Assembly: GCA_014871385.1 (NCBI GenBank)
Contig: CM026426.1
Location: 105,311,281-105,375,280 of the forward strand
Length of the DNA: 64,000 nucleotides
Direction: 5' to 3'
Origin: Ceratodon purpureus
Taxonomy: Eukaryota > Streptophyta > Bryopsida > Pseudoditrichales > Ditrichaceae
Below the pieces are notes generated by a model. That model was given only the letters and a program-made list of their open reading frames with translations, did not search any database and was not told the origin of the DNA. Shown here piece by piece: positions 42,984 to 62,786 of the stretch. The first letter of the stretch is position 1. Each line of letters starts with the position of its first letter. Both the position numbers and the translations under genes were made by a program.

Positions 42984-44225
42984 ATGGATACGGTAGCTGC
43001 ATATCGAAGGTTTATGTCAAGGGAGGTGGATCCATGGCCGTCGAGCTCATTGTCCCACGACAGCGCATCCTCTGTTGGCTCTTGGAGCGGGACAGAGCAG
43101 ACATCTTTGGCTACCTCGGGAGATAGATCAATGGCATTCCCTGCCACGATGTCCGATTGCCCATTGATGGATGGTCAGTACTAGGCCAAATCTTCACCGG
43201 AGCAGGTAATGTGCTAAGCGTCATACTCGTTTCATGCCCTGTTCCTACATATGGTTTGTTATCTACGGGGTTGTACATGTTACCACTGTCGAGCGTGAAA
43301 TAGCTCGAACGCATTCCCATAGGGCAGAAGTAGAAGTGGTTTTTTCGGATGGGGTGGGTACGAGGTGACGGAGGTATGGACTTGGCGTTTCACATATACG
43401 TGGGTCCAGACCACTCATAGTTTGATGATGGTTAAAAAGTGAGAAGATGTTGTGGGGGTAAACTCGAAGTGATTGAAGTGGTGACTTCGTGGGTTTCTGC
43501 CGGGCAGAGGGGCAGCATGGGAAATGGCCGAGCAGACAAGTGCAGCCCGGGACTTTGTCTCCTTCACCTGGAACCCCACCCTTGTGTTTCGCCAACGTTT
43601 CTTTTCTTGTGCGCATTTGGTTCCGGAGCTCCCTCAAGCGAGTTGTTTGAATTATGTGCTGCCTGGATTCGTTGTTGCGTATGGGGGATTGATTCGGGTT
43701 CCTTTCGTATTCTCGATTGGGGAGGGCCCGCACTGATATCGTAGCTCCGTGTGTTAGACCGAGGCTTCACTACTTTCGGGAAGGAATTGTATCCTCGTGT
43801 GCGACCTCCGCCGGGACATTGGATAGTTCTGCTTTACTTCGTAGGTTCTCATTTGGATTCTTCGTCGCTTCATCAAGGACTGGAGAACTAGAAACGTGAA
43901 CCAGGTTTGCCAATTTCCCGAGTGTTTTTTTCAATTTTAGAAGTTAATGTTAGAACCTGCTAATTCCGATCATGCATGTGTTCGCTGAACCGCATGCGCC
44001 TTCTGTCTGTGCAGGTTCTAGGGATTAGGTCGACGCTGGATTTATAGTTGGTTCACTTCAGGGATTGGAATCTCGGTTAGCTGGTGGCTTGTAGATTGCG
44101 ACGCAGCCATATACGTTTCATTGTCGCGGCTGAATTCGTTGTGGTACATTCTGGTTTCCTGGAGCGGTAATCAGTAGAGTTAGGGTTTTCTTTTAGTATT
44201 CCCGGTAGTGCTCGATCCCTCCATC
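42984..44225. other. 5' leader region of the Harbinger element
   Basis: Short competing ORFs on both strands (for example 42984-43184 +, 43263-43733 -) but no recognisable domain. A donor-like AG|GTTTGCC (43902) and acceptor-like GTGCAG (44014) suggest 5' UTR introns of the transposase gene. I could not locate a TIR or TNA duplication for the element's left end. Confidence 0.35.
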
Positions 44226-45159
44226 ATGGACCATCGCTTGGATCCCCAGAACGTCGCTTTTTTTTTACCCTCCCTTGTGCTGTTACTGCAAAACGTAGTG
44301 GATTCAATGTTTCGGCCCGAAGAGGCCATTGCTCCCGATGAGGGTGAGGGGTCAGTGGACGTGGGAACTGTTCACGATACTCTGGTTTCCATGAATACAA
44401 TTGTGGCGTCAGTGCTGCATGATTTTCGCATAGCTCATGCGACTACCCTGTTAGACCAAGAGCTTGGATGGTGGGTACTCCCCCGATCCACCTCCGACGA
44501 CAATAGATGGCTAGAAAATTTTAGACTAACAAAATCTGTAGTTTTCAGTCTCACTAATCTCCTGCGCCCCCACATCGAAAAACAGAATACCCGGTACCGT
44601 TTGGCTATCCCTCCTATAGTTCGTGTTGCCTGTTGTCTATTCAAATTATGCCAAGGAGCCAGCTTGCTTTTGTGTTCAGAGTTCTTTGCCATTGGTGTTA
44701 GCACAACGTTTGGAATTATACGTGATGTTGTCAAGGCAGTGAATGATGAACTTCGGCATGAAATTTCATGGCCCACGGGGAACCGGTTAGAGTTGATTAT
44801 GGCCCAATTCAGGGAGTTCTCGGGACTGCCAGGTGTGGTTGGCGCTATTGATGGTACACACTTTCCAATCCAAAAACCTAACGCAAGTCCTAAAGACTAC
44901 TTTTATTTTAAGTCGGGTGGCTACACGATGCAATGTCAAGCCGTGGTAGATTGTGACAGGAAGTTTATAGACTTGTCAGTAGGGATGCCTGGGTTGACTA
45001 ACGACGCCAGGCAATTGCGGAGATCAATACTTTACGAGAGAGCAACAAGCACAGCGTTGTTCGACCCGGCTGACTCTGTTGATGGCTTCACTCCATATCT
45101 GATAGGGGATGAAAAGTACCCAATCCTCCTCTGGTTAATCACGCCTTACACGGATTTGC

Positions 45160-45181
45160 GGGGGGGGGGGGGGGGGGGGGG
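45160..45181. repeat. Run of 22 G inside the Harbinger transposase
   Basis: An uninterrupted G tract lies between the LLWLITPYTDL and RSVQEALFNRKL parts of the protein. It alters the frame and may mask collapsed or low-quality sequence. Confidence 0.9.
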
Positions 45182-45422
45182 AGGTCGGTACAAGAGGCTC
45201 TCTTTAACAGAAAACTTTCCCGTGCGAGGTCAGTTGTCCAGAATGCATTCGGGATACTAAAACAAACTTTCCGGGAGCTCCATAGCACCTTGTATCTTCA
45301 CGTGAAGCTACTGCCTGATGTAGAGGTATGCTGCTGCATCCTCCATAATCTGTTGCTAGGGCAGAGCGTGGAGGAAGTGGATAGACTCCTCGCAATGCTC
45401 CAGCAGGAGGGAATGGTCCCTG

Positions 45423-45436
45423 CAGTCGATAAAGAC
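45423..45436. repeat. Left flank copy of a 14-bp duplication bounding the 17-kb element
   Basis: CAGTCGATAAAGAC here matches CAGTCGATAAGGAC at 62668-62681 in 13 of 14 positions. The two copies lie in the same reading frame of the Harbinger transposase (VDKD in both), as expected if an element inserted and duplicated its target. The true target duplication may be a shorter subset (9-11 bp for MULEs). Confidence 0.7.
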
Positions 45437-45650
45437 GTAGCTTGTACGTGAGCAGAGAGCGAAGAGCAGAGAGCGGTGAGCGCAGATTTGGAAAGCGGAG
45501 AGCACAGAGTGGGGGACAGAAACTAAAAATAGCACTTTTTTTACTAAAAATAAAATATAAAATTAGAAGATTCGAACATTCTCAGTATATTTTTGGAAAG
45601 TTACTTATTTTAGTAATTTTATTGACCCTATAACCATGGACTAATTACAG
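45437..45650 (+). repeat. Left terminal inverted repeat of the 17-kb element
   Basis: Imperfect inverted match to 62525-62667. Landmarks: TGTACGTGAGC (45443), purine units AGCAGAGAGCGAAGAGCAGA and GGAAAGCGGAGAGCACAGAG, then GACCCTATAACCATGGA (45624-45640). The purine (GAGCGGAGAGC) units are internally repeated and may be transposase binding sites. Confidence 0.65.
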
Positions 45651-45949
45651 TATTTTCATTAAATTTGTAGTTCGTTTTGTCTTTTCTTGGTGATTGATTT
45701 TTTAACGTGCACCAATTATTATGCTCCAGCTTCTTCTAACTAGTTCACGCATACATTAATTCCCCTTATCTCCTCAAATTTATATGCAAATTACCGCTTA
45801 AAATGTATTGGTATTGAAGGTCTTAAGAGGGATAAAGTAACATTTAATATCGTAAGATTTTCTTAACATTGTTAGAAATCATCCGCCATGGTCTACATGG
45901 TTTATTTCTTTTATTTTTTATATTAACTTCCATTACTCTATCTATCTTT

Positions 45950-46146
45950 CCTTTCCTTTAATTCTCTTTCATTTTATTTTCTCTTTCATTTTAATTTCTC
46001 TTTCATTTTATTTTCTCTTTCATTTTAATTTCTCTTTCATTTTATTTTCTCTTTCATTGTATTTGTCGCCTTCATATTATTTTCAACCTTAATATTTATT
46101 TTTGCTTTTGTTTACTTTTAATTTTTTAATTTCATTTTTTATAAAT

Positions 46147-46185
<39 letters not shown>
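45950..46185. repeat. Pyrimidine minisatellite and 38-T tract
   Basis: TCTCTTTCATTTTA(A/T)TT units (17-bp period) are repeated head to tail from about 45963 to 46058, followed by a run of 38 T (46148-46185) and ATT repeats. Low-complexity spacer inside the 17-kb element. Confidence 0.8.
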
Positions 46186-46188
<3 letters not shown>

Positions 46189-46430
46189 TTTATTATTATT
46201 ATTATTATTTTATTTTTTTTTTAAATTTTAAATGCTAAATGACTTCTGCTCAACCCTCATCCTTTTCCATTCAGTTTAGGACGATGACAACTTTCAAATG
46301 AATGAAAAGCCGATTTTCAAGGGCGCCAAGCATCTTCTTCAGAGATATTTAAGATAGGATTATGGAATGTCTCTTCCTCTTTTCTGTTGCTGTTTTGTGA
46401 AGCTCTTTTCCATAGTGCGGGACAGTAGTT

Positions 46431-46883
46431 ATGGAAGACGTCAGAGATATTGTTGTTTCACTTGTTGACGATGTTTGTCCATTTCAACCATATGTTGAGG
46501 TGGAGGACGAAGAAGAGGTGATGGCCAACAACCAAGGACGTCCTTTAACAACGGATGTTGACGTGCAACCGGATGTAAGAGCTGACCCTCCACGTTCAGA
46601 AAATTCGGATGATATCATAGTGCTGGAGGAGGACGCAGATGTGCCTTTGCAACCTCATGCATACTCCAAGGTTGGAAAGATCCCAAGGAGAACCTATTCC
46701 AAGGAATCACTGAATCGGAGGCGGGGAGGTGGGCCATTGCTGAAACGTTCATACCAAGGACACTTGCCAAGTGAAGGAACGAAGGTGAACGCAAATGTAA
46801 TTTGTCCTATAGTACAGTCAGAGGTTCGCAGTCCTGCTGATAGTGTAGTGGGCAACCCTAAACGTGTTAGGTTTGAAGATTAG
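46431..46883 (+). CDS. Small acidic protein with SUMO-interaction-like motif
   Basis: An intact 150-aa ORF starting MEDVRDIVVSLVDDVCPFQP. It is acidic in the first half, with DDIIVLEEDADV (hydrophobic core IIVL flanked by acids, as in SUMO-interacting motifs), and basic later (KIPRRTYSKESLNRRRGGGP). No family recognised. It is transcribed towards the 3' end of the MULE-like transposase (convergent). It may be an accessory protein of the 17-kb element. Confidence 0.45.
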   Translation: MEDVRDIVVSLVDDVCPFQPYVEVEDEEEVMANNQGRPLTTDVDVQPDVRADPPRSENSDDIIVLEEDADVPLQPHAYSKVGKIPRRTYSKESLNRRRGGGPLLKRSYQGHLPSEGTKVNANVICPIVQSEVRSPADSVVGNPKRVRFED

Positions 46884-47136
46884 GGCGTCTAAAAACAAGT
46901 ATATGTTTGGTGTAATAAAGGGTACATGTCAGGGGATACGAGGTATATAGTGCACTTGTTCAAAATAGAATGTATTGAAATAGAATGCAATCAATGTGTA
47001 CGACACAGCCTTTAATATAATGAAAAGTCAATACAGCTTCTGTATTGCTGACTTAGTACATGGGATATTATTAAAATCATTCACTACATGATCAATGGCC
47101 AATGTGGAAATGGCAGTTCTAAAGAAGGAGTGCTAC

Positions 47137-50100
47137 CTACTTCTTCGCCAAGGGGTGACGCAAGATTCCACTCTCTAGGAGTAGCTTGACCTCGTTAAAG
47201 CTGAAGGTAGGCGCATGGATGAAAAGCTCGGCATCGGGATCACGGTTGCATACCTTCAAGAGTATGTAGTAAAGGTGCTTACAATACGTGAACTGAGTCT
47301 TGCCTCGGAACGTAGTCATCATCTTCTGGAATGCAGGACAAGTGCAATTAGGGTAAGAACTGATGGTAATCTGGTACCGTGTGATGTGTGGAGCGACTCC
47401 CGAATCCAGCCCAATGATGCAACCGTGGCCCGGCTCAAGTATCATGGTGACGGAACGGAGGCGCGCTTTGAGTGACTTGGAGGAGCCCATGGAGAGTCGC
47501 TGCGCCGGATTGGGACGAGTGGCAGTGCGCTTCACCATCTTATCGTCTCTCTTGCCTGGGTAGCGGTCAGCGTCTGCAGGGACTGGCACCGAGCTGAGAT
47601 TTGCAGGGGGCCGGGCAGAGGAGAAGATGCGTCTTGGGGAGACCGGCTTCTTCGGCGGAAGTTGAAAACCTGCTGCTTCGAGGGCAAGAATCTCGGTGAG
47701 CTTTAGGTTAGTACCTAGTTTCACTGGCCAGACCTCTGGAATGGAGGGGAATTCCTGTTCTTTCGAGTAGTGTGCTACCGACTTGCGCTTAGAGCCTTTC
47801 ACGCAGCGCTCAATATCGTCGGAGCAGAAGAAGAACTCTGTCTTCTCGACTGTGTTCCTGCGATAGTTAGTCCAAAGCCCAGTGTAGGTCGGAGCAGCTG
47901 TGCAATGGGGCCCCCTGACAATTCTCTCAGTGCACTTCTTCTTCGTTTCAGCTCTTTGGGCCCAGCAGCACTTCGCCGAAAATTTGTGAAGTGTGGAAAT
48001 GTGCCATTCCTTCACGTCGACCTTGGTTTCTTCAACCGCGTTGACATGGCGAATGCCGCCCTTGTTCACAGGTGAAGGTAAAGGGGAATCAACTTCCTGG
48101 GCAGGAGGTTGGGTACATTGTACGTCGGTGTCGTGTTCGGAGTCGTCTTCCACAATGACGGGCATCTGCATAGGGCGAGCCCTGACGGCACGTCTTGGGC
48201 CTCTTGGGCGTGAGAAATTTGTCTTGTCCGGGCGATGAGACTCCACGTCAGCTCCGATGGGAACGTCGGCTTTTCGGTTCTGTGAACCGAAGACTTCCGC
48301 TCCAGGCATGATAGGCTGACGGGTGCAGAACTCATCCGCGCCTGGCATATCGAGCATGAGGATTTCGAGCGGTGTAGGATTTCCCCATTTCTTCGCGTTT
48401 CGTTCTGCCATCCGGAGCCTGAGTTCTTTCTTGGACGGTCCTGTTTCGCCCACATCACCTCTGAGAGATGGTAGTAGTTAACAACCTGTAGAAAAGCCCG
48501 AACGAAATCGTCCACGGTAGCAACGTAGAGGTCGTTCCCGTTGTTTCCTGAAGCTTGGAGCCACTTGTTGTGAACTGTTTCGGCGAGGTTACAGGTCGGC
48601 ATTTTAGTGAGTTCTTCTTCCCTAAATTTCTGCAGTGTAGACAGTAGGTGCAGTTAGATTTAGCGATTACAGTCGTGTAGGTTAGGGCTGGGAAACCCGT
48701 ATCAAAAACATTAATTCAAATTGCAGAAATCGTACCGTGGTCATGAATCCTCCCCACTGCCGGAAGCGGTGGTGCCAGAATGACAGCCACTGATCGAGTT
48801 TGATGAGTCCGCTTTCGCCAACGACCCCGGTGGATGCCGACCATGCTCGCAACGCGTGGTACAGAGTTTCCGCCTCTGCCATACTGGTCGCATTTTTGTA
48901 TTGAGTGCACATCTTCTTGTGTTGTTCCCAGAGTTCTTCGGGGAAGTGCTTCTGCGTATACGCCACCATGTTCTGAGTCCGGTGGAACAAGCACGACCTC
49001 TCCCGGTCCTCCATTGGGTCCTCTTTGTTGCCATTGCTGTAAAGGATTCGCACTGCATTCCAATTCGCCTGTGCGTTATCCGCCATGAACCCCTTGAAGT
49101 TCGGCGCTGCAACGCCATTGATCTCCATGACCAGGTTTAGGTTTTTCCAGAAGACGAGCTGGGCGTCCGTGTCCTCGGACTCCATGTCGCAAGTGGCGAT
49201 TGTCATCAAGCGGCAGTAGGTGGCGTCGTACACATGGCACGCCATCGTCGACCAGTCTTTGAAGCGTTTTACATGGTCGAACATGATCCATGCGTTCTCC
49301 TAATCTCCACCAGCTTGCATTCGGCTGACCAAGTCGACACCACTTCCCGGGCCGACCTCCGACATCTTGAAGAGGAAGACTTTTCACGCATAGTTCCATG
49401 ACCAGGAAACCTATTCTCTTGGACATACGCCCAGAGACTGTTTCCACGGAGCTTGGTGATACCGTCCATGATTTCGTACCTTCTGATTTTTTTGAAGGTG
49501 GCGACTTTGTTGCGGATGTTGGGCGACGCCATATCTTTGCATCGATCCAGAACAGGAACCAGCTCCTCCATCGTCAGCTTCCTCGGTGGTGCATCCTCGG
49601 GCTGTAGGAGGTAGCTCCCGATGAGGAGTTTGCTCGCCTCCAGGACAACGGCGCTCTTTGTTGCTTTGTTGTTCATCTCTACCTGCTCTTCTATTAAGCT
49701 ACTAATCTCTGCTTTAGAGTCTCTGTAGTCTCCAACTTTCACTGGATGATCATGTGTTCCTATGTGAATACAAGCTCTAGTCTGATTAGGTTTGCCCACA
49801 ACGTAATAAATCTTAGCCTCGCATGTAGCTACACATGATGGAGGTTCTTTACATACCTTGCACACTAGCGTGGAGTCAGATTGAGGAGGCTGATCCATAA
49901 GAAAAGCTTGCAGGGTACACCCTTCGAACTGAGTCTTGTTAACCTCAAAGATCTTGGGAACACGCTTCAGGAAGTCACACTCCTTGTTGCTGCAGCGCAG
50001 CCATCCGACGCAGTTGGAACTTCGAAAAGAGAGTCCCAAGTCGTTTTTGATGTTTGTTGTGATGGTCTTGGTCCACAAGTGTCCGTCGTATGGTTTGTCC

Positions 50101-50543
50101 ATTCCCTGCATTGACTTGGCGGCGAGCTTAGAGGATCCTGCAGCAGCTGGGGGCAACTCAAAAAGAACCGGACCATCAAACTTCGCAGGCAAGTACTCTA
50201 CTCTCTCGTGTCTAATAGTGGAATAGTCTATCTTCTTCAAAATGTTTTTGGACCCACGCGTCTTAGCAATCTCTTTAAGGAGGGGGACAATGCTAACTGT
50301 GACTTGAGACAATGGACTAGACACATTGGAAGGAGGAGCATCAGTGTGGACCTTAGGCACCAACTTGACGAGACTAACTTCGTCATCAGAGGAGAAAGAA
50401 ATGACTGTCGGAGGAGGAGGTTTCTCTACGTCTGAAGTTTTAGTACCAGGCTCGACTTTGACCTTGACATCACGAGATAAGGGAGTCTGAATTGTGCAAG
50501 TAGAAGAGCGACGGGGGGTGAGGATCTCAGTGGATGCAGCCAT
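47137..50543 (-). pseudogene. MULE-type transposase with GCM/WRKY-like and SWIM zinc fingers
   Basis: The ATG at 50543 (MAASTEILTPRRSSTCTIQT). An acidic linker (ISFSSDDEVSLVKLVPKVHT) precedes a GCM/FLYWCH-like finger (VGWLRCSNKECDFLKRVPKI ... ACIHIGTHDHPV). The MULE catalytic region has CHVYDATYCRLMTIATCD (first Asp), FKGFMADNAQANWNAVRILY (second Asp), RSCLFHRTQNM (C/H pair) and EAETLYHAL. A GT-AG intron (about 48736-48634) precedes MPTCNLAETVHNKWLQASGN. The C-terminal SWIM finger is PNCTCPAFQK...FTYCKHLYYIL. Lesions: a missing base in an A run near 49387, a TAG at 49300-49302, and a frame change near 48450. It is the likely mobilising enzyme of the 17-kb element, or of a parent copy. Confidence 0.75.
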
Positions 50544-50591
50544 CAGAGAATCAGTAAGACCATAGACTCTATAGGATCCAGGGAAGAGTCT

Positions 50592-50915
50592 TCACTGCAA
50601 CATATTGTTCTCATCTCTCACTGAAGGTTGCCCGAGGGTGTGGGTAACCTCCGCAGTAACGTCATCAAAGATCTCCTCCTCTACACTGATGGAATCCTCA
50701 CGAAAATTGAATCTGAGACTCAGGCGAAGAGAGGACACTGTAGCTAGACCATCGTCATCTACGCGAAACCTAAGAGGGATTCTTATGCCTTGGGCGTACA
50801 GACAAACCATTCCCATGTTCGCAAGCAACTCGGTGATGATAGAGGAAGAGGAGAGAAGAGTGAGTGTACTAGCGAAGCGGTATCGCGAGAGCAAAGTGAG
50901 AGGAATGATCACCAT
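50592..50915 (-). CDS. Small ORF between the inner TIR element and the transposase
   Basis: A 107-aa minus-strand ORF (MVIIPLTLLSRYRFASTLTL) with a hydrophobic/Ser start and an acidic middle (FREDSISVEEEIFDDVTAEV); it stops 49 bp before the transposase ATG. Its start codon touches the left tip of the inner TIR element at 50916, so that element may have cut its promoter or an upstream exon. A plus-strand ORF overlaps fully; the minus frame looks more protein-like. No family recognised. Confidence 0.35.
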   Translation of the reverse strand: MVIIPLTLLSRYRFASTLTLLSSSSIITELLANMGMVCLYAQGIRIPLRFRVDDDGLATVSSLRLSLRFNFREDSISVEEEIFDDVTAEVTHTLGQPSVRDENNMLQ

Positions 50916-53285
50916 GGCAGAGATGCGTTAAACTTGACGTAAATCAACACTATCCTGAATTAGTGTGGAAAAAATATCCAATTAAACGTGGCGCGCGTCA
51001 AGCGTTTTAACGTGAAAAAGTCACCAATAACGTCACTGCCTCAAAGAGGATATGGGTGAAACGCGAATAAAATTTATACGTTCCAAATAACGGCATCACG
51101 TTAAATTAAACGGACACGTTCCTGTTGGATAGTAATTTTTTCACCTACTTTTTTACCTCAAGGAACTTTAGATATGACTAAATATAGTAAGTCTCCACGT
51201 CAGCACATTTCTTATGACAGGAAGGACGTCAATCTTAACAGGTGCTACGTTAAAATGTGTTAAAAAAATCGTAACACATTGACTGACGTGGAATGAGTGC
51301 GCTGACGTGGAATGTTTGAAGAGTCAATGGCTGACGTGGAAGGTAGTTTTGACTATGGTTGACCATAGTAGTATCCAGAGCAGCGCGTTTCTTATAACAT
51401 TGAGGCGTCATAGGTGACATGCGCCACGTTCAAGTGTGTTAAAAAAAACGTACCGAGAAGTCTGACGTGGAATGACTGTGCTGACGTGGAATGCGTTGTA
51501 GGGTGATAGGCTGACGTGGAAGGTTTAGGGTTTTACCGGTCAAGTAATGTTTGAGAGCCCGGGGGGGCTGTCAACATTGACGTGCGCGTTTCTTGCAACG
51601 TGATAGTGCGTTAAGATGTGTTACAAAAAACGTATGAACATATCTGACGTGGAATGCGTGCGCAGACGTGGAACGTGTGCGTGGAGGAATTTGGTGACGT
51701 GGAATGTAAGATTTGACCTGCAATATTTTATTTGGGAGTCTAGGAGGCTATCAACAGTGACGCACGCGTTTCTTGGGTCAGAAAGTGCGTTTCTTGTAAC
51801 GGGAAGTGCGTTTCTTGTAACATAAAGTGCGTTCAAATGTACTACAAAAAATGAAGGCAGCTAGGGTTGGCGGCTAGGGTTTGGCGGCTAGGGTTTGACG
51901 GCTAGGTTTTTGAGGGGGTTTTAGAGTGAGGATTGACTCTTTTTCTCTCTATCTGGGTGTTTCAGCTGGAGCTAAAAGTGTGTGTGTGTGTGTGAGTATG
52001 GAGCAAGGAGTGTGTGTGAGTAAGAAGCTAGGAGTGTGTGTGTGTGTGTGAGTGTGGAGCTAGGAATGTGTGTGTGTGTGTGTGAAAGTGTAGAAGTTGA
52101 ATATTACTTTCATGAGGCCATTACTTTCCTCTATCCTAATGATGACGCAATTGTGTATACAGGAAGAAGTTGAGGGTTTGGAGAAATTGCTTGGACAGAA
52201 TGCTACAGTGCCGGTGAAGACCTTTAAACGGGTAAGAGCTTCTTGATACTAAACCTTCAGATGGGATTGATTGGCTGATTTATTGCTGTGACCTCACCGT
52301 TGGCTTGATCACGTGGGCTGTGTAGATTAAGAAGAATCTAGCGTGAGCCTCTTGGGATGTACGCACCGTTTGTGTCCTCTACATGCTAATCGCTCCTCCA
52401 AGAAGTGGACGAGCTCATTTTGGTAGAAAGCTGTATGCCATGGCAATGTAGAGGTAGACTTTATGTATTTTGTATTTGAATAACAGAACATTGTATCAAA
52501 AAAGTTACAGCGTGTTTAATTGTGTTTTAATTGATGTTTCGTTTGCGTTTTAAATGACGTTCTCTTGTGTTCCAGAACGTTATTGCTTACGTTCAATAGT
52601 GTTTGTATGTGTTATAATGATCATGAGCTATGCGTCCGGATAAACATTAAATTGCGTTTCAGTGAACACCCAAAATCCACTTTAATGTTACAAAGAGTTG
52701 ACATTGCGAACGTCAACTTCCGTCTAAATGCGTTTTTCAAAACGCATTCAAATACGTGACACATGCGTTTATCAGCGTCCAAACACATCATAATGAACGT
52801 CCACACTACGTTTACGTAAACACACAAAAACCGTCACCCTAAACCGTTTTTGTAAACATACAAAACCCGACACCATAAACGCATCCGCGAATATTCTCGG
52901 ATCCGTGATCATGACACGTGTCACCATCTCAACCGTTGAAATCAAGTGCCACGTCAACTGCCACGCCATATCTGACGTGGAATGGACAATGGAGGGAAAT
53001 ATCCACGTAAACTCTAACGTGGAATGAAAAATAGCGGGAAATGCATACGTGGCAAAAAGTAACTCCCTCGATTTACTGACCCCATGTAACTTCTGGCAAT
53101 TCCGAGTAACGTGGTTTAACAGAGATGACGTGCGCACGTTAAAACGTTTTAACGTGCCATGACGTGCCGCGTCATAATCAAAAGACCGATGTGACAGGGC
53201 GCGTCACTTTGGACTAGTCAAAAAATCCACGTTAAACCGCGTTAAAAACCGCGTTAAACGGCGTTATCTTTGACGCATCTCTGCC
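50916..53285. mobile_element. Inner 2.4-kb TIR element rich in ACGT boxes
   Basis: GGCAGAGATGCGT at 50916-50928 is the exact inverse of 53273-53285, and similarity continues weakly for about 11 more bases. No clear target duplication was found. The interior has no recognisable transposase but is packed with ACGT motifs, CGTTTCTTGTAAC repeats, (GT)n tracts around 51980-52085 and GGCGGCTAGGGTTT units (51855-51905). A plausible small exon EEVEGLEKLLGQNATVPVKT lies between CAG (52162) and GTAAGA (52231). It occupies the divergent region between the transposase and the accessory/methyltransferase genes. It is either a nested non-autonomous element or a specialised divergent control region. Confidence 0.6.
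51285..51705 (+). promoter_or_regulatory. Array of TGACGTGG boxes in three about-180-bp modules
   Basis: TGACGTGGAA(T/G) recurs nine times in three clusters of three; the first box of each cluster is at 51285, 51463 and 51645 (one member degenerates to AGACGTGG). TGACGTGG is an ACGT-core site of the kind bound by plant bZIP factors. The modules are tandem duplications that also contain CGTTAAnATGTGTTAnAAAAA. More copies (both orientations) occur at 52940-53170. Confidence 0.7.
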
Positions 53286-53773
53286 TTAGTGGATGCATCG
53301 CTGTTGATCATTTTATTGAAGTTGGAATGTCCATGTGGACGACTAGGTAATGATTCATTCTGTTACGTAACGAATGTATGATTAAAGAGAGACGGCGCTA
53401 ACTAATTAGAATGTTGCTTTTTGCAGGCCCGAGTTAGCAGGGTAGGGATTTTTAGAACTACGCATTTAATATATGAATCGTGGAACCGATTCTATTCGAT
53501 GTGGAGGTTGGTGAGATTAGACTGAGCCGTCAGTTGTTTCCTTATTTAATACAAGTATTCCAGTGCTTAATTCAAAACTTTTATTATTTTGTGGGCTTGG
53601 TTTATTCTCTTCCAATATAGATTGATCTTATGAGCTTTAATTCAAAATACAATTATTTATAGTTTTCATTAATTTAAATAGGTTTAGAATAGGGTAAGTA
53701 TTATGGGCTGAATCAGAGGACTTGAAGGTTTGGGATATATAAGAGGAAGGGAAGTTAGAAGGAGAGCAATATT
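53286..53773. other. 5' region of the accessory gene
   Basis: No ORF of note; probably leader and promoter of the rightward gene cluster. A possible short intron ends near 53430 (TTTTTGCAG). Confidence 0.35.
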
Positions 53774-55058
53774 GTGAGGAGAGTTCTCTCGTTAGTTAGA
53801 CACATGAAGGAGAGTGGAGGGTCAGCTCCCTCCACTTATGTCACTCCTAAACCTAGAAGAAAGGCATACGGTACAGATTTTACGAACAGGAGAGCGAGGA
53901 AGAGGAGAGAATTACGTAGGAAGTCAAAGTCGAAAGGCAACCTCTTGAGTGCACCTCTGAAGGTTCGAGGAGCTGGGCTGCCTGTGGCAATTAAATTTTG
54001 TAGCATTCGTAAACTCATTTTAGAGTCCATAGTCGAGGTGAAAGATGAGGTTTTAGAGGACATCGCAGTTGAGCATCAGGAGCATGAGGTAATAAGTAGC
54101 GGAGAGAAACACCTAGAGATGACGGAAGAGCTAGGGTTCAATTCCAGTCCGACTTTGGAGACCCCACAACCTTCGTTCAGATTCAAGGAGTGTTCAACAA
54201 GAGGGACGAATTCACAGTCGGCCGACCATTCTAACACGGATGCGGTAAGTTTCATAATCGATACATTATAACATGCTAACTGTAAATAATGTATTTTTGA
54301 GAGTTACCTTCATTTTTATGTAATGTCTTCGCGTTTTAATTTTTTTACTATTTAGAGTTATAATGCCGCATCAAACCGAGTGGTTGTTTACAATAAGAGA
54401 TCCGAAGTATAAATACTGGTCATAGTCTTAAATATTTGTGCAGATTATCGATTGGTTTAGGATTGATCAAGAGGTTTTAGAGGAAAAGACGCAAGAAGTG
54501 GATGCGGGCGAGGAGTCCGATCCTGAGACATTGATAAGAGTGGCTCGTAGAGCAAGGCGAGAAATTATGGAGGCGGGCGAAGGTGGGGAAGCAATAGCTG
54601 CAAGACAAGCGGGACGAGGGGACCCCGGAAGTCCATCGTAGATGAGTCTAGACGAGGACCAATCGCCCGGTAGAATGGCGGGGCCCGTTGATGACATAGA
54701 TTGTGAAGAGATAGAGGTGGCGGATCGAGGGAGAGGAATACATGGTCCAGGGAGAGGGAGAGGTCGAGGTAGTCGAGGGAAGGAGTCAAGGGAAGGCAAT
54801 TTGCAACTCAACCTTGCGAATCTGGGGTTGGAGGCTACTGACGGGAGAATGGCCGCGCGTGAAGAGAACCGAGGGGCGGAGGAGATGGACAGCGCGGGCG
54901 GAGATACTGATCGTGGCACAGCCACAGAGGAGGTAAAGGTTCGGGTTTGGGATTCTTGGGATGTAGGGTTGTTGAATGTTGAAGTGGGTGAGGTTCGGGA
55001 TTCGTGGATTGTTATGCTGAGGGTTGCGGAGTAAGAGATTTGGGTTGCAATTCCCTCT

Positions 55059-55820
55059 GCAGCTCTGCCTGCGAGAGCGAAGGTCGCGGTTTGGGCATTG
55101 ACAGTTGAGTTTTTTTGTTGGGTTTTTGGTGAGGTTGAGGATCAAGAGGGAGTGGGGGAGTTGGGGGAAGGAGAGCTCAAGGCCGCAGCTCTGCCTGCGA
55201 GAGCGAAGGTTGCGGTTTGGGCATTGACTGTTGAGTTTATTTGTTGGGTTTTTGGTGAGGTTGAGGATGAAGAGGGAGTGGGGGAGTTGGGAGAAGGAGA
55301 GCTCAGGGCCGCAGCTCTGCCTGCGAGAGCGAAGGTTGCGGTTTGGGCATTGACTGTTGAGTTTATTTGTTGGGTTTTTGGTGAGGTTGAGGATGAAGAG
55401 GGAGTGGGGGAGTTGGGGGAAGGAGAGCTCAGGGCCGCACCCCTGCCTGCGAGAGCGAAGGTCGCGGTTTGGGCATTGAATGTTGAGTTTTTTATTTGGG
55501 TTTATGGTGAGGTTGCGGATGTAGAGGGAGTGGGGGAGTTGGGGGAATTAAAATTTTGGGGTGCCGCGGCTGCAGCAGGGGACGCGACCGCGAAGGCTCG
55601 GGGGCAGGGCAGGCCACATTCTGTACAGAATGTGGCCCATTGGGAGGAAGGGGAGGTTGCGGATCTAGAGGGAGTAGGCGAGTTGGGGGAAGGAGAGCTC
55701 AGGGCCGCAGCTCTGCCTGCGAGAGCGAAGGTCGCGGTTTGGGCATTGAATGTTGACTTTTTGATTTATGTTTATGGTGAGGTTGCGGATGTAGAGGGCG
55801 TGGGGGAGTTGGGGGAATCA
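55059..55820 (+). repeat. 126-bp in-frame repeats, with a 270-bp composite unit
   Basis: Copies of GCAGCTCTGCCTGCGAGAGC (or close variants) start at 55059, 55185, 55311, 55437 and 55707: spacing 126, 126, 126 and 270, all multiples of three. Each 126-bp unit encodes 42 residues. The 270-bp unit adds a segment containing AAATTTTGGGGTGCCGCGGC and a palindrome. Confidence 0.85.
55612..55637. promoter_or_regulatory. Palindrome 1 (26 bp) built on CACATTCTGTACAGAATGTG
   Basis: A perfect 26-bp inverted repeat centred at 55624/55625, first of four copies. In the repeat-protein frame it encodes PHSVQNV, so it may also be a coding repeat. Its symmetry would suit a dimeric DNA-binding protein or a hairpin. 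Confidence 0.7.
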
Positions 55821-55886
55821 AAATTTTGGGGTGCCGCGGCTGCAGTAGGGGACGCGACCGCGAAGGCTCGGGGCAGGGGGAGGCCT

Positions 55887-55902
55887 CATTCTGTACAGAA
55901 TG
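55887..55902. promoter_or_regulatory. Palindrome 2, 16-bp core
   Basis: CATTCTGTACAGAATG, perfect core of the same palindrome, centred 270 bp after copy 1; the outer arm is broken by one base. Confidence 0.7.
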
Positions 55903-55998
55903 TGGTTGATTGGGAGGAAGGGGAGATGGGGGGAGGCCGCGAGTGTACAAATGTGGGGGATGCGACATCCATAGCCGCGGGGTCTCGGGGGCGGGGAG

Positions 55999-56024
55999 AC
56001 CCACATTCTGTACAGAATGTGGGT
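55999..56024. promoter_or_regulatory. Palindrome 3 (26 bp)
   Basis: A perfect 26-bp inverted repeat with the same core and different outer bases (ACCC/GGGT), centred 117 bp after copy 2. That the outer arms differ from copy 1 yet remain complementary suggests selection on symmetry. Confidence 0.7.
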
Positions 56025-56115
56025 ATTGGGTTGGTGGGGAAGGTGGGAGGAGGCCGTGGGGATGCGAAGGTGGGGGATGCGAGAGCCATGGCCGCGGAGA
56101 TATGGAGTGGGGAGA

Positions 56116-56139
56116 CCCACATTCTGTACAAAATGTGGG
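56116..56139. promoter_or_regulatory. Palindrome 4 (24 bp, one mismatch)
   Basis: The same inverted repeat with one A-for-G mismatch in the right arm, centred 116 bp after copy 3. It is the last copy before the ParB-methyltransferase gene. Confidence 0.65.
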
Positions 56140-56992
56140 GATTGGGGGTGGGGGGCAGAGAAGTTTAACATCTCATGACGATATTATTTGTTTGGATTGC
56201 AACTGTTTGTTGGAATCTTATAATTAGTTTGTTGTCTGTGTTGTAGGAGTTCACAGATCAACTCACTACAACTGAAGCTGATGGTCCAACTTCTGCATAA
56301 ACTGAGGTAATTTAATCTTATTTTCTTTTTGTATTGAATATTGCAATGTAGATTAAACTTCTTTAAGTAGTTTTGTAAACTAAATTGGTTAATTGACAAT
56401 GTATTTTTTCCTCTGCATGTAGGTATTCTCAGATGCACCCTTGTCCATCAGTTCCACGATCACAGTGATCAATGTTTCCGACCTCTCGGATTCATTTGAT
56501 CAGCCCCATTTATGTAGGTGTGATTTAGGAAACCCTGTAGGTTTAGGTAGTGGACCTCTCGAGGTCCACTCTCCTCAGTACATGCCTACGTCTCCTGTCT
56601 ATGAGCCTACATCCCCGGGCTACATGCCTACTTCTCCACGACTTCGTACCCCGCCGATGTCTCCACCTTCTCCTTCCTCGCCTATTAGAGTGAGGAGGCC
56701 AGCCCATGTTGTCTTTGCCCTACCGGCGATATTGCCTTGCCCTGTCCAGCAGACCAGGCGTTTTTGGAGGAGGCGCCGTCATTGGAACTGTAGACAGGCT
56801 AGGGAGTATTATAGCCGTGCTCCACGTACATAGTGGCCTATGTACTACTTTCTATTGTTTGGGTTTAGAGTTGGTTTTCCAGAAGAGATGTATCAGATCA
56901 GAAAGCTATTGGTTTATTCTTCTTCATAATTGTTTTACTTCTTATGATCCTTGTCTTGGAATCGAATTTGAACATGTATGACTTCTGGCAGG

Positions 56993-59900
56993 TAACTCAG
57001 ACACAGGATATGTTGCCAGCGCCATCTTGTCCTCCTGATTTAACGAATGCAGTGGACGGTGAATTGGGACATCGTGTACAGTACAAAGTGGACTCCATAG
57101 GCGTCATCAACAAGCTCCGAATACTTCCAAAGACGAAGTCGCGTATCCTAGTTCCCCTTTGCAGAATGATCTCTATGGCAAGAGTGAGACCTGTGGGGGA
57201 AATGGGAGTTCAGCATTTGGAGCGCGAGTTTGTCAAAGGATATAGAGATGGAGACCGAGTCATGTACATTTCCATCTACGACCATGAAGAGAAGACAGCC
57301 GATGTCACAGAGGAGACCAAGGCTGCGTGGAGCCCTTGTTGGCAAAAAGCGAATGATGCTTTCGAAGATGAGCTCTTGGCCGACTCGGATGGGAAGGAGT
57401 TTTCTGGGAAGATGTTCTATGTCTGGGAAGGTAACCATCGCCTTGCCGCATGGTACAGACATATCAACAAACATCACAGCGAAGATCCAGCATGGCACAT
57501 TTCTGTGCATTGCATTGTTCTTGACCCCCGCGGTCATGTGGGAAACCTTCTACATGCCATGCACGACATAAACTGGTGAGGATTTAAACCCTCTATTTTG
57601 TCCATTCCTCTTGCACGCAGCTTGAACTCGTTCTTCATGCATTGTACTGACCATCGACTATTCGTACAGGTCTACAGAAAATGATCATGTAAAGAGCAAT
57701 ATTCGGGCAAAACTTTTCCGAATTCGCTCCTTCGGTGTGATGAAATTGGAGGAATTCAAGGATCTCCTCACACCAGCGGAGTGTCATTTATGTTTGAACC
57801 ACAAACCGTCCAATCCATCCTGGTTTACCTTGCCAACCAAAGTCTTCATCGCGTTTCTTTATCGTGTAAGCTCTTCTTTCTCCCTCCCTCACACTTCCAT
57901 ATCGACAAATGATTTGTGTTTGTTTGTAAACTTACAATTTCATAAATCTGTTTTCCAGAGAGAAATCACGGCTGCTTCTGACGAAGCTGCCCGAGTCTAC
58001 AAGACGAAAACAGCCACTGAAGACCAAACCGCAACTGGTGTTTGGGATGCCATGAGTGCAGCTTCAAACAACATGGTGGAACTCATTAAGAGGAAGGACT
58101 TCACCAAGTATTTGGCAATTGCAAACCAAGAACGGTGACGACTTCCTCAATGAAGTGAGACCCTGACCCTGGTTGACTTAAGTATTTCGTTTGACTACAT
58201 CGATTTGTATTCATATTTTCTAAAACTCCTGTACTTGTTTCAGATTAATCGGCATTTCAGTGAGAACAATAAACCTGAGATGTCCCTCGATAAGCTTCAG
58301 AAGATTGTTCCAGCGGCCGTGGAGGCCAAATACAAGGCTCGTTGGTTGAGGTGGTGGAACTCATCTCTGAGTTCCCGAATGTCTTACAGATTTTTACTAA
58401 CTCAATTCAAGGATATCGATTTCGACCCTTGGTTGAACAAGGCCTCATTCTGGGCTAGGGTATAGTTTCTTAAAAACCTTTTCAATGATTTGATCCTTTC
58501 TTCTCTTCCTCGATTCTCTCTTACTGCTAATTAATTGAATTCTGAATTACAGTTGGAGGACGCCGTCATCAACGAATTTGAGGACATATGCAAGGCGGAG
58601 AACCTCGTTATTAATTGGAAGGCATTTCAAGATGTCCAAGAGCCGGGCAATTATGTGGAGAATGCACGTATTATGTTGTGGGACAAGGCCTTCCCTACGT
58701 TCATTGGAAAGAAGGCTGATAAGCCCTTCGACAAGAAGTCCATTTTTGCTAAATTTCCTGGAACCGCTCAGGTTGTCAAGCGGGTTACTTACCGGTACGA
58801 TACATACCTTTTAATCAGATTCAAATTCCAGAATGACGTCTCTTTATCTTCTTGATACTAACCTTCTACATATTGGTTTACTTAGGTACTTCAAGCGAGA
58901 GCTTGTTTTGAAGGGGGCCATCACGGTCCTGCAGCTCCCCAACTACTTCCTTGCTTGGACGTCGAAAACCTCGGACCAGTGTATCTATTCTCCCCAACAG
59001 TTGAAAAGGTACAAAGCTCCTCACTTGCTTGAGGGATGCTGGTATCTTGATTGCTCTTGTGGTTTCACGATTGACTCAGAGGCGGACGTCAAGACTCTAC
59101 ACGATGGGGGTGAGGTTGTGGTGGAAGACTCCGTGGATGATGCAGAAGGTCGTGAAGGAGAGCAGGATCAGTCTTCTGCTCCACCACCGAAGAGAGGGAG
59201 AGGAAGGCGACTGAAATCTCTGCGTTCTCAGTCAGAGGCATCACAGCAAACTGGTGCGGAGTCTTCCGCGCCAGTTGAGAAGGCACCAGAGCCCTCTCCG
59301 GGTATTGTCGTTACGAAGCCTTCTCCAGCTTCTTCGCCGGCTCCTTCCTCAATCAGTGCTTCCGAGGTCACCAGAGGTCTCCTCGAGCAGAGGAAAACCA
59401 AGAAATTCCTAGAGACTACCTCTTTTTCCCTGGAACTCTCAATTCCTCTCAGGTTTATGTCATCAACTCCTCTGTGAATTTGGTTCTATCCCGAATGTTG
59501 AATGTACAAGGAACTTGAAGACGTTGGTGGCGATCCCGAATGAAACAAGGCTCTGGACATCATTCGAATGGTATGATTCGTTGTTTCATTCTTTCCCTTG
59601 AATACTTATATTCTGTAAACCTTATATTTTCTAACTCTGATATCTTGTTTACTCAAGTTTGGAGGAGGCCGCGAGAACCGAGTTTTCGATAGATGCAAAG
59701 AGGAGAATCACTTGAAATTTGACTTAATCATTGCCGACGTTCCTCAGAATCTTCCGGTCCCCACGATATCCAATCCTGCCTACGTCGCTCTGTCTTGGAA
59801 CAAACGCGGTAAGGATTATTTGGAGGACCTCTTCAAATTCGCAAGACATTTCTTGCAGTTTGATGGTGCTCTCTGCATCATCCACAACAACGACCAACGT

Positions 59901-61004
59901 GTGGCTTCGAAGATTTCCGAAGTGGCTACTGCTGATGGCTTCGTGCAGCATCGAGACTGGTGGGGCTTCAATGCACTAGGCTTGGCTCACCCAACGATGC
60001 CCGACTCCTTGGTATGTACATCATAATCTTCGCTTGTCTTTGCATTCTACTAAGTTTTCTTTTTAATTACACTCACATATTTTTGTTTCTCGCAGTCTCT
60101 TCGATTCTGGGTGCGCGTCTTCATTCGTGGTGGTTCTCCCTCATCCAAGTTTTCTTTTCAAAGGAAGAAATCCGATGTCGTTTACAACGACCTCCACATT
60201 ACCGAGAGTGATGCCATTCTCAACTTCACCTATGCAGACTCGCAGCTCATGAATGGGGAGGTGCCGTGGAGAGGCCCGAGGGAGAAAGCCCCTGAGATGA
60301 TGCAGGCCATCATTGAGGAGATGACCAAGCCCGGTGACATAGTCTTCGAGTGGTCGGCAGGAACAGGTAATCCTCCATTAGCAGTTTCTGCATTTCCAAT
60401 CCTCTGATTTTCTCCACAGGGACTCACTACTTTTCTGTGCTACGTGTTTTCAGGTGCCTCCCTCAAGGCTTGCCAGAGTATTGGTCGTCATATTATAGCT
60501 TGTGAGGAGGACAAAGCCATATTCAACGCCCTTCTCAAACCGTATATGGCTACGTCAACTGCCATGGGCCCTCCTAAACATCCTAGGCTGGCAGCAGCAG
60601 ACGAAGCGCCTCCAAAGAGATCAAGAAGACCTGATAACTGGTGTAAGTCTTCTATTTTTTGTTCAAATTCTCCAAGCATTGCTTCTCTTTGCACCTCTAC
60701 GTACTCAATCTAACCACAATCGGTTTTCTATTGCAGAGTAGTTTCGGCAACACCGCCACGTGGGCCAACATCAGTGTCCACTCCATCGTGGCGTCTTCAT
60801 TCCAGCCCGATTCAGCCTTTTATACTTCCGGACTACGCAGAGGACTTAGCACAGGCGTTTCAATCTGGAGCCCTTACATATGTTCCTAGTCGGCCAACTA
60901 CTTTTGATCCCAGGGCCCTTCTATTCGTCGATGACGAGGCGGTAGAAGGAGATTCTGAGACATGTAGTTCTGAGAGTGGAAGTAGCGATCGTAGCATGTT
61001 CTGA
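56993..61004 (+). CDS. ParB-like domain fused to beta-class DNA methyltransferase, multi-exon
   Basis: Exons with matching GT-AG phases: 56993-57575, 57670-57865, 57959-58134, 58261-58459, 58553-58794, 58886-about 59452, about 59550-59571, 59658-60011, 60096-60366, 60454-60642 and about 60738-61004. The N-terminal part has the ParB-like box MFYVWEGNHRLAAWYRHINK (57415 on). A long middle part is followed by a proline/serine linker with KRGRGRR. The methyltransferase part has LIIADVPQNLPV (motif IV position, 59727 on; DVPQ instead of DPPY) and, C-terminal to it, KPGDIVFEWSAGTGASLKAC (motif I, AdoMet pocket) and IGRHIIACEED. Order IV before I marks the beta class (N6-adenine/N4-cytosine). A TGA at 59541 is avoided if the acceptor at 59549 is used. 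The role is unknown; possibly element-DNA recognition or marking. Confidence 0.7.
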
Positions 61005-61518
61005 GTTTGAAGGAGGCTTCGGTTTTTCATTGTTTTCATCTGATTTGATTTGATTTAATTGGAGTTCATTGGGTAATCCTTCGTCTACTCTACTACCCTA
61101 AACCTAAACTTGTTATGATTCTCATATCCAATTTGTCTCCGTGTTTGTAAAGGATGAAATGTCACAACTATAATGCTCAAAATATAATATGAAGAATGAA
61201 ATGTTACAAAAGAAATGCTCAAAAATAATATTGTGCTGTTATTTATATTTTACTCATTCAAAATCCCACATTTGCATAACCATGTTACCTATTCTTGACT
61301 TGGTGTACATCTTGGTTTCTGCTACTCCATTATTGTACAGGAACTCTGAAATATTCCACGAACTTTTAAGACCATTTCTTTTAGTTGGTTTCGAGTTCTC
61401 TTATTTCTAGAATCATCTATATTATCTAAAACCATCATGCTGGAATACTCGTATCTAGATCCAATAAAAGACCAAATCTTAAGGATTGTATTCGAACACC
61501 ACGCTAGACTTCACAGTA
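61005..61518. other. 3' flank of the ParB-methyltransferase gene
   Basis: AT-rich and without a supported gene; likely 3' UTR and spacer. Confidence 0.4.
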
Positions 61519-61902
61519 TTAATCCTTTGGAGGATATACAGTCCAACTCTTGTCCATATCAAACCAGCAAGTTTTGCCATCCGATATTATCACTTTGGGC
61601 AGCTGAACAACTGGATTCTCATCGACGTTCGATGGCAAGGGATACGGGATTAGACACAACTCCATAATACGGAGAAGCTCATTGGTACAAAGCACTGTCC
61701 AACGCCATTCACCTTCACCAACATGGAGGCTTCCGATGTGCCTAAACGGTGGCAGGTCCATGCCTCGTTCCCTGGCGCGCTCCACCTCCAGCAGCGAGGG
61801 CTGCAGCTCCTGATAACTCGCCGGTGCGTTTGGGGGCAAACCTACAGCCGCTCTCGTCCTCCTCAATCTCGCATTACACACCGTCGGCATCGCGCAACAC
61901 AC
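61519..61902 (-). CDS. Hypothetical protein near the right end of the 17-kb element
   Basis: A 127-aa minus-strand ORF beginning MCCAMPTVCNARLRRTRAAV, with LRIMELCLIPYPLPSNVDEN and a C-terminal TCWFDMDKSWTVYPPKD. No family recognised. It converges on the ParB-methyltransferase gene. An upstream minus ORF (62118-61918) could be an earlier exon. Support is only an open frame with fairly protein-like composition. Confidence 0.3.
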   Translation of the reverse strand: MCCAMPTVCNARLRRTRAAVGLPPNAPASYQELQPSLLEVERARERGMDLPPFRHIGSLHVGEGEWRWTVLCTNELLRIMELCLIPYPLPSNVDENPVVQLPKVIISDGKTCWFDMDKSWTVYPPKD

Positions 61903-62524
61903 TAAATTGTTGTAGTCTTAAAACGTTCCACGCAAGCTTGCAGATTGACCCCCTCGAACTCCTACGCTACCTTCGCATACTGCACAGAATGCCAAGGACT
62001 GTGTCACTATCCTAATACGCCACCTAGAAACAAGCTCAAGAAACCAAGAGTGACCTCCTTCTCTAGAACCCAGCTTACCAAGTGCTGTTTCATGATGAAA
62101 TTCTCCTACTTGTATCACTCAAATGAAGATGCTTCGCTGCTTAGGAAGAGAGAGTAATCTTTGATGAAGACAAGGACTCTAACAAGGTATATCTTGGTTT
62201 CAGCAGTTAAGATATTATACACGAATTTTGAAATATTCCAGGAAGTTTTCAAACCTTGCCTCCTTTATGTTCTCTGAAATTTGTTTCTTTCCTTGTGCAT
62301 TTACATAAACCTATGAAAGAATTAATTGTTTGATCTAAAACGTAACGCCTCATCATTGTATCTTGCCTAAACCCAAGACAAATCTATGAAAATATATGCA
62401 TGACGTCATCATGACATCAGCCCTAATTCGTATCTTAGAGAACAAACGTAATAAATTTTTACCAGAGATAACCCTGATCTCCACGGTAATATACTCTTTT
62501 CCAAAAAAAAGTGTCAAAGTCAAG
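61903..62524. other. Right subterminal region of the 17-kb element
   Basis: No supported gene. The AT-rich sequence leads into the right terminal inverted repeat. Confidence 0.4.
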
Positions 62525-62667
62525 CCTTATTTTAGTAATTTTCCACGGTTATAGGGTCTACTTTGCTTTTGAAAATTTTGCTAATTGTCAAATCTGTGCT
62601 CTCCATTCTGTGCTCTCCGCTCTCCACTCTACGCTCTCCGCTCTCCGCTCACATACGAACTTTCCCC
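62525..62667 (-). repeat. Right terminal inverted repeat of the 17-kb element
   Basis: Imperfect inverted copy of 45437-45650. It contains CCACGGTTATAGGGTC (inverse of the GACCCTATAACC landmark), several GCTCTCCGCTC units (inverse of GAGCGGAGAGC) and GCTCACATACG at the outer side. Confidence 0.65.
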
Positions 62668-62681
62668 CAGTCGATAAGGAC
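62668..62681. repeat. Right flank copy of the 14-bp duplication
   Basis: CAGTCGATAAGGAC, one mismatch from 45423-45436, placed at the point where the Harbinger transposase frame resumes. Confidence 0.7.
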
Positions 62682-62786
62682 CTCGCCGAGGAGCGTCCAG
62701 GCGAGGACGGGGCTCCTCGTGATGAGGTGCAAGGTGAAACAAAAAGAGGAAGGCACGCTGCATTCCTTGTGCAAGACAGGGCTTGA
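62668..62786 (+). pseudogene. PIF/Harbinger transposase, displaced 3' end
   Basis: The frame VDKDLAEERPGEDGAPRDEV continues the protein that was cut after VPAVDKDV at 45436, and ends QDRA then TGA at 62786. The shared VDKD is encoded by the duplicated 14 bp. This continuity is the main evidence that the 17-kb unit is an insertion. Confidence 0.75.

Follow-up and report, generated by a model that had tools for sequence, protein, structure and literature searches.

The moss Ceratodon purpureus carries, in a 64,000-nucleotide stretch of contig CM026426.1 (the window), a Harbinger-type transposase gene interrupted by a 17.2-kb element in which a gene with a DNA-methyltransferase domain lies alongside the element's own transposase gene. 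This raises the question of whether the methyltransferase gene is part of the element, and what it could do there, or whether it was picked up by chance. The original prediction, made from the window alone, had proposed a giant Mutator-like element (MULE) whose methyltransferase gene is a resident component that gives the element its own DNA-recognition or marking system. After comparison with other copies, our best reading is that the window holds a decayed member of a high-copy family of 15–19 kb MULE-like cut-and-paste DNA transposons of C. purpureus.

Gene set of the element family

The subterminal motif GACCCTATAACC(A/G)TGGA has 1,371 matches in the 362-Mb genome (664 forward and 707 reverse), and the reversed control pattern has none in the same genome. 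On contig C1, the 91 listed matches form 27 facing pairs of adjacent matches no more than 25 kb apart (median 16.5 kb, range 8.7–23.2 kb), with 22 of the 27 spaced 14–19 kb; shuffling the orientations gave a mean of 10.4 facing pairs and a maximum of 19. We read 12 further copies. Ten are C1 pairs whose facing motifs lie 14.8–18.6 kb apart, a choice that under-represents short and one-ended copies; e30 is a motif pair picked for a methyltransferase resembling that of the window, and f1 is a methyltransferase place without the motif. Together with the window copy these make 13 copies from one genome, 12 of which (the window copy included) form a first transposase subfamily. The remaining copy, f1, represents a second subfamily with the same architecture, its transposase parts sharing 65–72% amino-acid identity with the first. 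Further pieces of such elements flank f1, with a transposase part before it (L032, 1–1123) and a match to the open reading frame (ORF) ORF53759 after it (L033, from around 7475), which indicates that such elements cluster there.

End sequences were recovered at both ends in 11 of the 12 first-subfamily copies, with related ends in f1, and a perfect 10-bp target-site duplication flanks those 11 copies and f1, that is, 12 of the 13; e18, which lacks the A-end, is the sole first-subfamily copy without both ends and the duplication. A genome search with the transposase gave 2,037 first-look candidates, of which 150 matches were scored and listed. Among the 23 listed matches on C1, all of which were checked, 21 have the A-side motif at 3.0–4.6 kb and 16 have both motifs. 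The 10-bp duplication and the long terminal inverted repeats support assignment to the giant MULE-like elements; MULE target-site duplications measure about 8–11 bp (9–11 bp had been assumed originally).

The transposase has 223 homologues, 26 of which were aligned, with a D...C..H layout recognized by eye. MULE transposases often end in a SWIM zinc finger; a candidate for one here (PF04434) scored 13.8 bits, below the cut-off of 19.6, with the pattern CTCPAF...YCKHLYYI seen by eye. A weak fold model (pLDDT 68) matched no fold in the Protein Data Bank (PDB) at E ≤ 0.001; the 50 matches listed were mostly phosphatases (TMq <0.3) and included one transposase (ISCth4, E = 0.09). Viral contigs searched with the transposase contained no relatives. 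One relative with 51% identity lies on a 4.1-kb contig (L001, 1523–3548) of the cyanobacterial metagenome bin AVDCRST_MAG81, where a eukaryotic transposase probably reflects contamination of the bin.

The cargo recurs with the ends. All ten C1 copies carry ORF46416, the three transposase parts, ORF53759, an ORF resembling the RNA polymerase II C-terminal domain (CTD-like ORF), an exon with a ParB-like motif, exon P6 and the methyltransferase exons M1 and M2, the match to the ParB-like exon being only partial in e14 and e18. P2–P5 are present in nine of the ten (not e14), M3 and M4 in nine (not e24) and ORF61917 in seven. The transposase parts, M1 and M2 are likewise present in e30, and f1 keeps the same gene order up to M4, without a match to ORF61917. 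By eye, the CTD-like ORF has around 3–5 heptads in the 12 first-subfamily copies, a number that varies by copy (positions 56570–56640 in the window), and it scores 20.1 bits against PF05001, just below the cut-off of 20.3. Both ends and the same cargo were thus found together outside the window (in the C1 copies other than e18, in e30 and, with related ends, in f1), disposing of the possibility that no other such copies exist, and the recurrent order, with M1 and M2 in every copy read, indicates that the methyltransferase is a resident gene, as originally proposed. The same recurrent order led us to reject a composite of unrelated insertions.

Selection on the cargo and exchange of its blocks

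We estimated the ratio of nonsynonymous to synonymous substitution (dN/dS) by a simple count method, including the broken window copy and dropping pairs with saturated dS or dS of 0.02 or less, which left, for example, 20 of 55 pairs for P2 and 60 of 66 for the ParB-like exon. Median dN/dS for the transposase was 0.10–0.15; in the cargo it was 0.13 for the CTD-like ORF, 0.09–0.25 for P2–P6, 0.45 for M1 and 0.29–0.34 for M2–M4 (0.29 for M2). Judged by these ratios, the cargo is under purifying selection. Median dS was 0.08–0.14 for the transposase, whose exons are 94–99% identical within a subfamily, compared with 0.5–1.5 from the CTD-like ORF to M2, 0.20 for M3, 0.12 for M4 and 0.07 for ORF61917. 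This contrast implies either that the cargo types are much older than their present carriers or that the transposase side has been homogenized by conversion, and exchange is needed either way.

Pairwise identities divide the cargo into three blocks, CTD to P4, P5–P6 and M1–M2. Across the 12 copies compared, these identities correlate closely between P5 and P6 (Spearman 0.93) and between M1 and M2 (0.89), with a value of –0.11 between the ParB-like exon and M1. For instance, identity between the window copy and e26 is 91% for the ParB-like exon, 92% for P6 and 67% for M1, and between e26 and e16 it is 70%, 68% and 96% for the same three exons. The f1 transposase is 71% identical to all others, with a CTD-to-P4 block 93–95% identical to those of e20 and e24 and M1–M3 93–94% identical to those of the window copy and e30. 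Trees agreed with this mosaic, although the clades were picked after seeing the identity table and the P values were not pre-planned. A clade of f1, the window copy and e30 had 100/100 support in the M1–M3 tree and was rejected for the transposase (approximately unbiased test, p-AU 0.0038) and for CTD to P4 (4e-5), and a clade of the window copy, e26, e10 and e12 had 100/100 support in the CTD-to-P4 tree and was rejected for M1–M3 (6e-7) and the transposase (1e-64). The P5–P6 tree left the placement of the window copy, e26 and e30 unresolved. On this sequence evidence, blocks of the cargo, which are old, assort independently of each other and have been exchanged between copies and between transposase subfamilies. 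The likely cause is homologous recombination or gene conversion between copies.

Array sites, the methyltransferase domain and a proposed self-recognition system

Where a repeat-rich accessory gene had been predicted we found a tandem array instead, its units having stops in every frame in most copies; some frames are open in e10 and e12, and open stretches of more than 1,000 codons occur in e10, e12 and e26. An array lies between ORF53759 and the CTD-like ORF in all 13 copies, spanning 0.8–4.6 kb with periods of 171–404 bp (best-scoring repeat row per copy). The array sequences differ by type, with a 9-mer overlap between units of 0.00–0.20 for every pair except e28 and e14 (0.86). In 10 of the 13 arrays the inverted repeat was equalled by no more than one shuffle in 100 (2-mers, 100 for each array, with the best inverted repeat picked for each unit separately). 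Most copies hold roughly one inverted-repeat site in each unit of the array. One such repeat, CCTACTGTCGT...GACAGTAGG, was the independent pick in six of the 13 copies (e30, e28, e14, e20, e24 and f1) and is referred to here as the type-A site; CTACTGTC(N6)GACAGTAG is present 10–21 times in each of these six arrays and absent from the rest of those elements. Other sites are common to the window copy and e26 (ATTCTGTACAGAAT, 3 and 9 times), to e16 and e22 (CTGCTTTCGGAGCAG, 20 and 15 times), and to e10, e12 and e26 (CATGGCCGCGG).

The two type-A groups, e30/e28/e14 and e20/e24/f1, have no 11-mers in common at five or more copies each, other than the site itself and A/T-rich runs, which indicates that the site persists as the sequence around it changes. 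We relied on this comparison and on the per-unit picks rather than on a pile-up of sites; the search pattern itself dictates 16 of the 20 invariant columns in that pile-up and makes it circular in part. No site class extends beyond a single clade of the CTD-to-P4 block, which contains the ParB-like exon, and the classes track neither the transposase nor the methyltransferase block. Arrays of inverted-repeat sites adjoining the gene lend indirect support to DNA recognition by the cargo.

Of the ParB–methyltransferase gene originally predicted, the methyltransferase half holds and the ParB label found no support in sequence searches. The methyltransferase domain matches PF01555 in the window copy (3.3e-7) and e26 (2.9e-8), at 30.9 and 34.4 bits with a cut-off of 26.7, and it matches DpnA (5hfj, 5hek; 1.8e-6) and CcrM (6pbd; 0.0017) in the PDB, with values of 9.6e-6 and 4.8e-4, respectively, in a profile search. 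By these matches the domain descends from the N6/N4 DNA methyltransferases (beta-like, PF01555), a statement about ancestry and not about activity. It resembles DpnA and CcrM, which are bacterial N6-adenine methyltransferases, across the domain, and is unlike them in having D(I/V)P(E/Q) for DPPY, eukaryotic introns and a fusion to other conserved exons. Its intron positions appear, by eye, to be common to three metagenome relatives (P0121–P0123), so that it is probably a eukaryotic gene of long standing. Searches with the methyltransferase in viral and prokaryote genome collections gave no relatives.

On balance, we favour the view that these elements are giant MULE-like transposons with a self-recognition system analogous to that of Arabidopsis VANC. 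In this reading the transposase inserts the element with a 10-bp duplication, and the methyltransferase-derived cargo protein would bind those array sites that match its own type, thereby telling self DNA from host DNA. Once bound, the protein may bring in or itself make a change to chromatin or DNA that promotes the expression or transposition of the family it belongs to, by anti-silencing or by marking. The anti-silencing protein VANC acts by binding motifs held in tandem arrays and clearing methylation, and is not known to be a methyltransferase itself. Methylation as the effect is the weakest step of the mechanism proposed here. Block exchange would alter specificity, as subunit swapping does in restriction–modification systems. 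A bolder version, in which the protein reads sites that no other cargo type has, specificity and effector modules are shuffled across elements and transposase subfamilies, and competing types address only their own copies, is one that we put forward only tentatively, as rather improbable.

Parallels exist in other transposons. According to PMC5735166, VANC binds a short motif amassed in tandem repeats, and these differ strongly from one related copy of the VANDAL/Hiun MULEs to another. Like the family described here, those MULEs are plant transposons with a transposase (VANA) and accessory genes, and in them the accessory protein and its targets diverge by type. The VANC target given there, YAGTATTAY, is not an inverted repeat, unlike the array sites here. 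Our elements also differ from VANDAL in their size of 15–19 kb, terminal inverted repeats and exchanged cargo blocks, and what has been seen in them is arrays with inverted-repeat sites. The retrotransposons of Symbiodinium and Klebsormidium that encode DNA methyltransferases (DNMTs), as described in PMC5890265, likewise have a multi-copy methyltransferase gene under purifying selection (Ka/Ks < 0.2 in K. nitens); those are C5-cytosine DNMTs in retrotransposons, whereas here an N6/N4-type domain lies in a DNA transposon. The same paper mentions Dam-like adenine methyltransferases in DIRS retrotransposons and DNMT-bearing DNA transposons in marine viruses.

Several observations weigh against the self-recognition reading. 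The transposase gave no match to the Pfam MULE model. Among the listed matches to M1 (part of 372), two of the eight places on C1 have both motifs and six have none at the expected distances; the one of these six that was read is f1, of the second subfamily. The ParB label comes solely from the motif GNHRLAA, which we take to be ParB-like and which no search confirmed: the exon has no Pfam or PHROGs match and no meaningful PDB match, also with a profile of six copies; its fold model failed (pLDDT 36) and so gave no test of a ParB fold; and a homologue search with the ParB-to-P6 part found nothing at E ≤ 0.001 among 7,998 candidates scored. Plasmids and phages have ParB–parS partition systems, and ParB–methyltransferase fusions exist. 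The likeness here is a putative DNA-binding protein beside an array of inverted-repeat sites; unlike in those systems, ParB homology is unsupported by searches, and no ParA was noticed, although no search was aimed at it. In the methyltransferase domain, motif IV aligns with the DPPY of DpnA and reads DVPQ, DVPE or DIPE in all 12 first-subfamily copies, departing from the pattern (D/N/S)PP(Y/F/W); the catalytic aromatic of DPPY/W is lost, which makes methyl transfer by the domain doubtful. The arrays of e10, e12 and e18 yielded no significant inverted repeat; e10 and e12 belong to the CTD-to-P4 clade of the window copy and e26 but lack ATTCTGTACAGAAT, and e18 lacks the type-A site of its own clade. 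Because the array adjoins the CTD-to-P4 block, linkage alone could explain their agreement.

Linkage is the core of one alternative, in which the arrays are ordinary minisatellites that travel with the adjoining ParB-like block, their hairpin-like units persisting through replication slippage, small-RNA hairpins or recombination hot spots. The three copies without the site of their clade fit this account, whereas the sharing of no frequent 11-mers between the two type-A groups beyond the site and A/T-rich runs, and the confinement of the site to the arrays within those elements, argue against it, and we consider it unlikely. A stronger rival, to which we give nearly an even chance, accepts that the gene is resident and takes its product to be catalytically dead, a scaffold binding S-adenosylmethionine or DNA in an element that methylates no DNA itself, for which METTL14 beside METTL3 is a precedent. 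The substituted motif IV points this way, found as it is throughout the first subfamily and also in P0122, the only one of the three metagenome relatives to cover the motif, as does retention of the glycine motif and the family match; set against it is the continued constraint on M1 and M2, although catalysis and binding cannot be told apart by it. The missing aromatic of motif IV also tells against another role for the methyltransferase, in which its marks on element DNA would set the timing of transposition instead of countering silencing. Dam times IS10/Tn10 transposition in this way and the nearest solved relatives of the domain are DpnA and CcrM, yet we regard this as a distinctly improbable role. 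MULEs are known to capture genes, and this one copy might have captured a host or bacterial gene by chance; however, the genes and their order are common to 12 other copies across two transposase subfamilies, and the intron positions look common to the metagenome relatives, so that capture is already refuted for the copies read and we give it next to no credence.

The window copy and its setting

Insertion of the element into the Harbinger-type transposase gene was confirmed by imperfect terminal inverted repeats and the perfect target duplication (Table 1). The Harbinger ORF at 44184–45260 matches DDE_Tnp_4 (2.1e-14), and a downstream frame (45113–45451) reads into the element and is picked up again at the right junction (62490–62786); without the insertion, the empty site would read ...CAGTCGATAAGGACCTC... 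The duplication had been given as 13/14 bp. It is real, and its true length is the perfect 10 bp of CAGTCGATAA, the added AGAC/GGAC being the element's own first bases, which resemble the next host bases by chance. Comparison with other copies, which begin with GGACGTAGC or GAGGG(A/T)AGC, moved the start of the element from 45437 to 45433, and the end at 62667 was kept. The inverted ends were borne out by local alignment of 45437–45640 with the reverse complement of 62541–62667, which scored 62, whereas 1,980 random pairs of windows reached no more than 27. As for the repeat units said to be shared by both ends, GACCCTATAACC(A/G)TGGA is present at both, whereas exact GAGCGGAGAGC is found at the right end only (three times) and is degenerate at the left. 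The sequence TTATTTTAGTAATTTT also lies near both ends (45607–45625 and 62525–62541), in direct orientation beside the inverted motif.

The window copy is probably not autonomous. One frameshift and one stop codon interrupt its transposase gene where the reading frame is open in each of the 11 other first-subfamily copies, and its methyltransferase gene, compared with that of e30, is broken by frameshifts and a stop codon in the interval from P6 to M1. Other copies are open across the stretches broken here. The inner element with terminal inverted repeats noted originally was confirmed as a separate, CACTA-type insertion, with ends CACCATGGCAGAGATGCGTT and CACTAAGGCAGAGATGCGTC and internal repeats around 181 bp apart; it is absent from all six copies compared at its junction, and 50933–52932 is unmatched in all nine copies compared.

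Elsewhere in the window, 24633–27577 encodes a Helitron-like protein (Helitron_like_N, 2.4e-57) and an ORF with a protein-kinase domain (2.6e-8) that overlaps it downstream, and 12143–14714 holds remnants of a CACTA-type transposase (Transposase_21, 7.7e-50; DUF4218, 9.3e-28). Two related-looking ORF sets at 1407–4419 and 29324–32091 resemble hAT-type transposases by eye, and the three pieces tested gave no Pfam match.

Table 1 Features of the element and its insertion site, in window coordinates
Feature	Position	Strand	Remarks
Harbinger-type transposase gene (DDE_Tnp_4), 5′ part, interrupted	44184..45432	+	carries its own change of frame
Target-site duplication, left copy, CAGTCGATAA	45423..45432	.	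10 bp; identical to 62668–62677
Whole element, A-end to B-end	45433..62667	+	17,235 bp; ends and gene order common to contig C1 copies
A-end terminal inverted repeat, AGACGTAGCTTGTACGTGAGC...	45433..45520	+	degenerate GAGCRGAGAGC units
Left subterminal motif GACCCTATAACCATGGA	45624..45640	+	17 nt
ORF46416, function unassigned	46416..46883	+	155 aa; 12/12 first-subfamily copies; median dN/dS 0.51
MULE-like transposase gene	47137..50591	-	N-terminal, DDE-like and C-terminal SWIM-like parts
CACTA-type inner element	50910..53291	.	2,382 bp; 3-bp duplication GAT at 50907–50909 / 53292–53294
ORF53759, upstream of array	53759..54271	+	170 aa; 12/12 first-subfamily copies and f1; median dN/dS 0.30
Tandem-repeat array	55059..56153	.	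palindromes around TTCTGTACAGAA at 55614, 55884, 56001 and 56117 (last: core changed)
CTD-like ORF	56423..56833	+	RNA polymerase II CTD-like heptads YMPTSPV YEPTSPG YMPTSPR
So-called ParB exon	56992..57575	+	GNHRLAAW motif; no database support; median dN/dS 0.13
Exons P2–P6, taken as part of the ParB-like exon's gene	57670..59452	+	57670–57865, 57959–58134, 58261–58459, 58553–58794, 58886–59452; boundaries approximate
Methyltransferase domain, exons M1–M3	59658..60642	+	59658–60011, 60096–60366, 60454–60642; motif IV DVPQ, motif I EWSAGTG
M4, last exon	60738..61004	+	
ORF61917, function unassigned, near B-end	61519..61917	-	132 aa; 9/12 first-subfamily copies; median dN/dS 0.19
Right subterminal motif GACCCTATAACCGTGGA, inverted	62542..62558	-	
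B-end terminal inverted repeat, GGGGAAAGTTCGTATGTGAGCGGAGAGC...	62590..62667	-	
Target-site duplication, right copy, CAGTCGATAA	62668..62677	.	10 bp
Harbinger reading frame, 3′ end	62678..62786	+	

A MULE-like element inside a Harbinger element is ordinary and, taken alone, unsurprising. The 2021 Ceratodon genome paper of Carey et al. reportedly noted, on the sex chromosomes, a superfamily of cut-and-paste transposons not described before, which may or may not be this family. To our knowledge, few transposons carry their own DNA-modification or anti-silencing genes, VANC being the plant case known to us, and how such systems change their target is an open question in the field. In one genome there are many copies here in which transposase, recognition block, methyltransferase block and array are naturally combined in several ways, so that which protein part reads which site becomes testable, and the family may bear on how the moss genome lives with such large and numerous elements.

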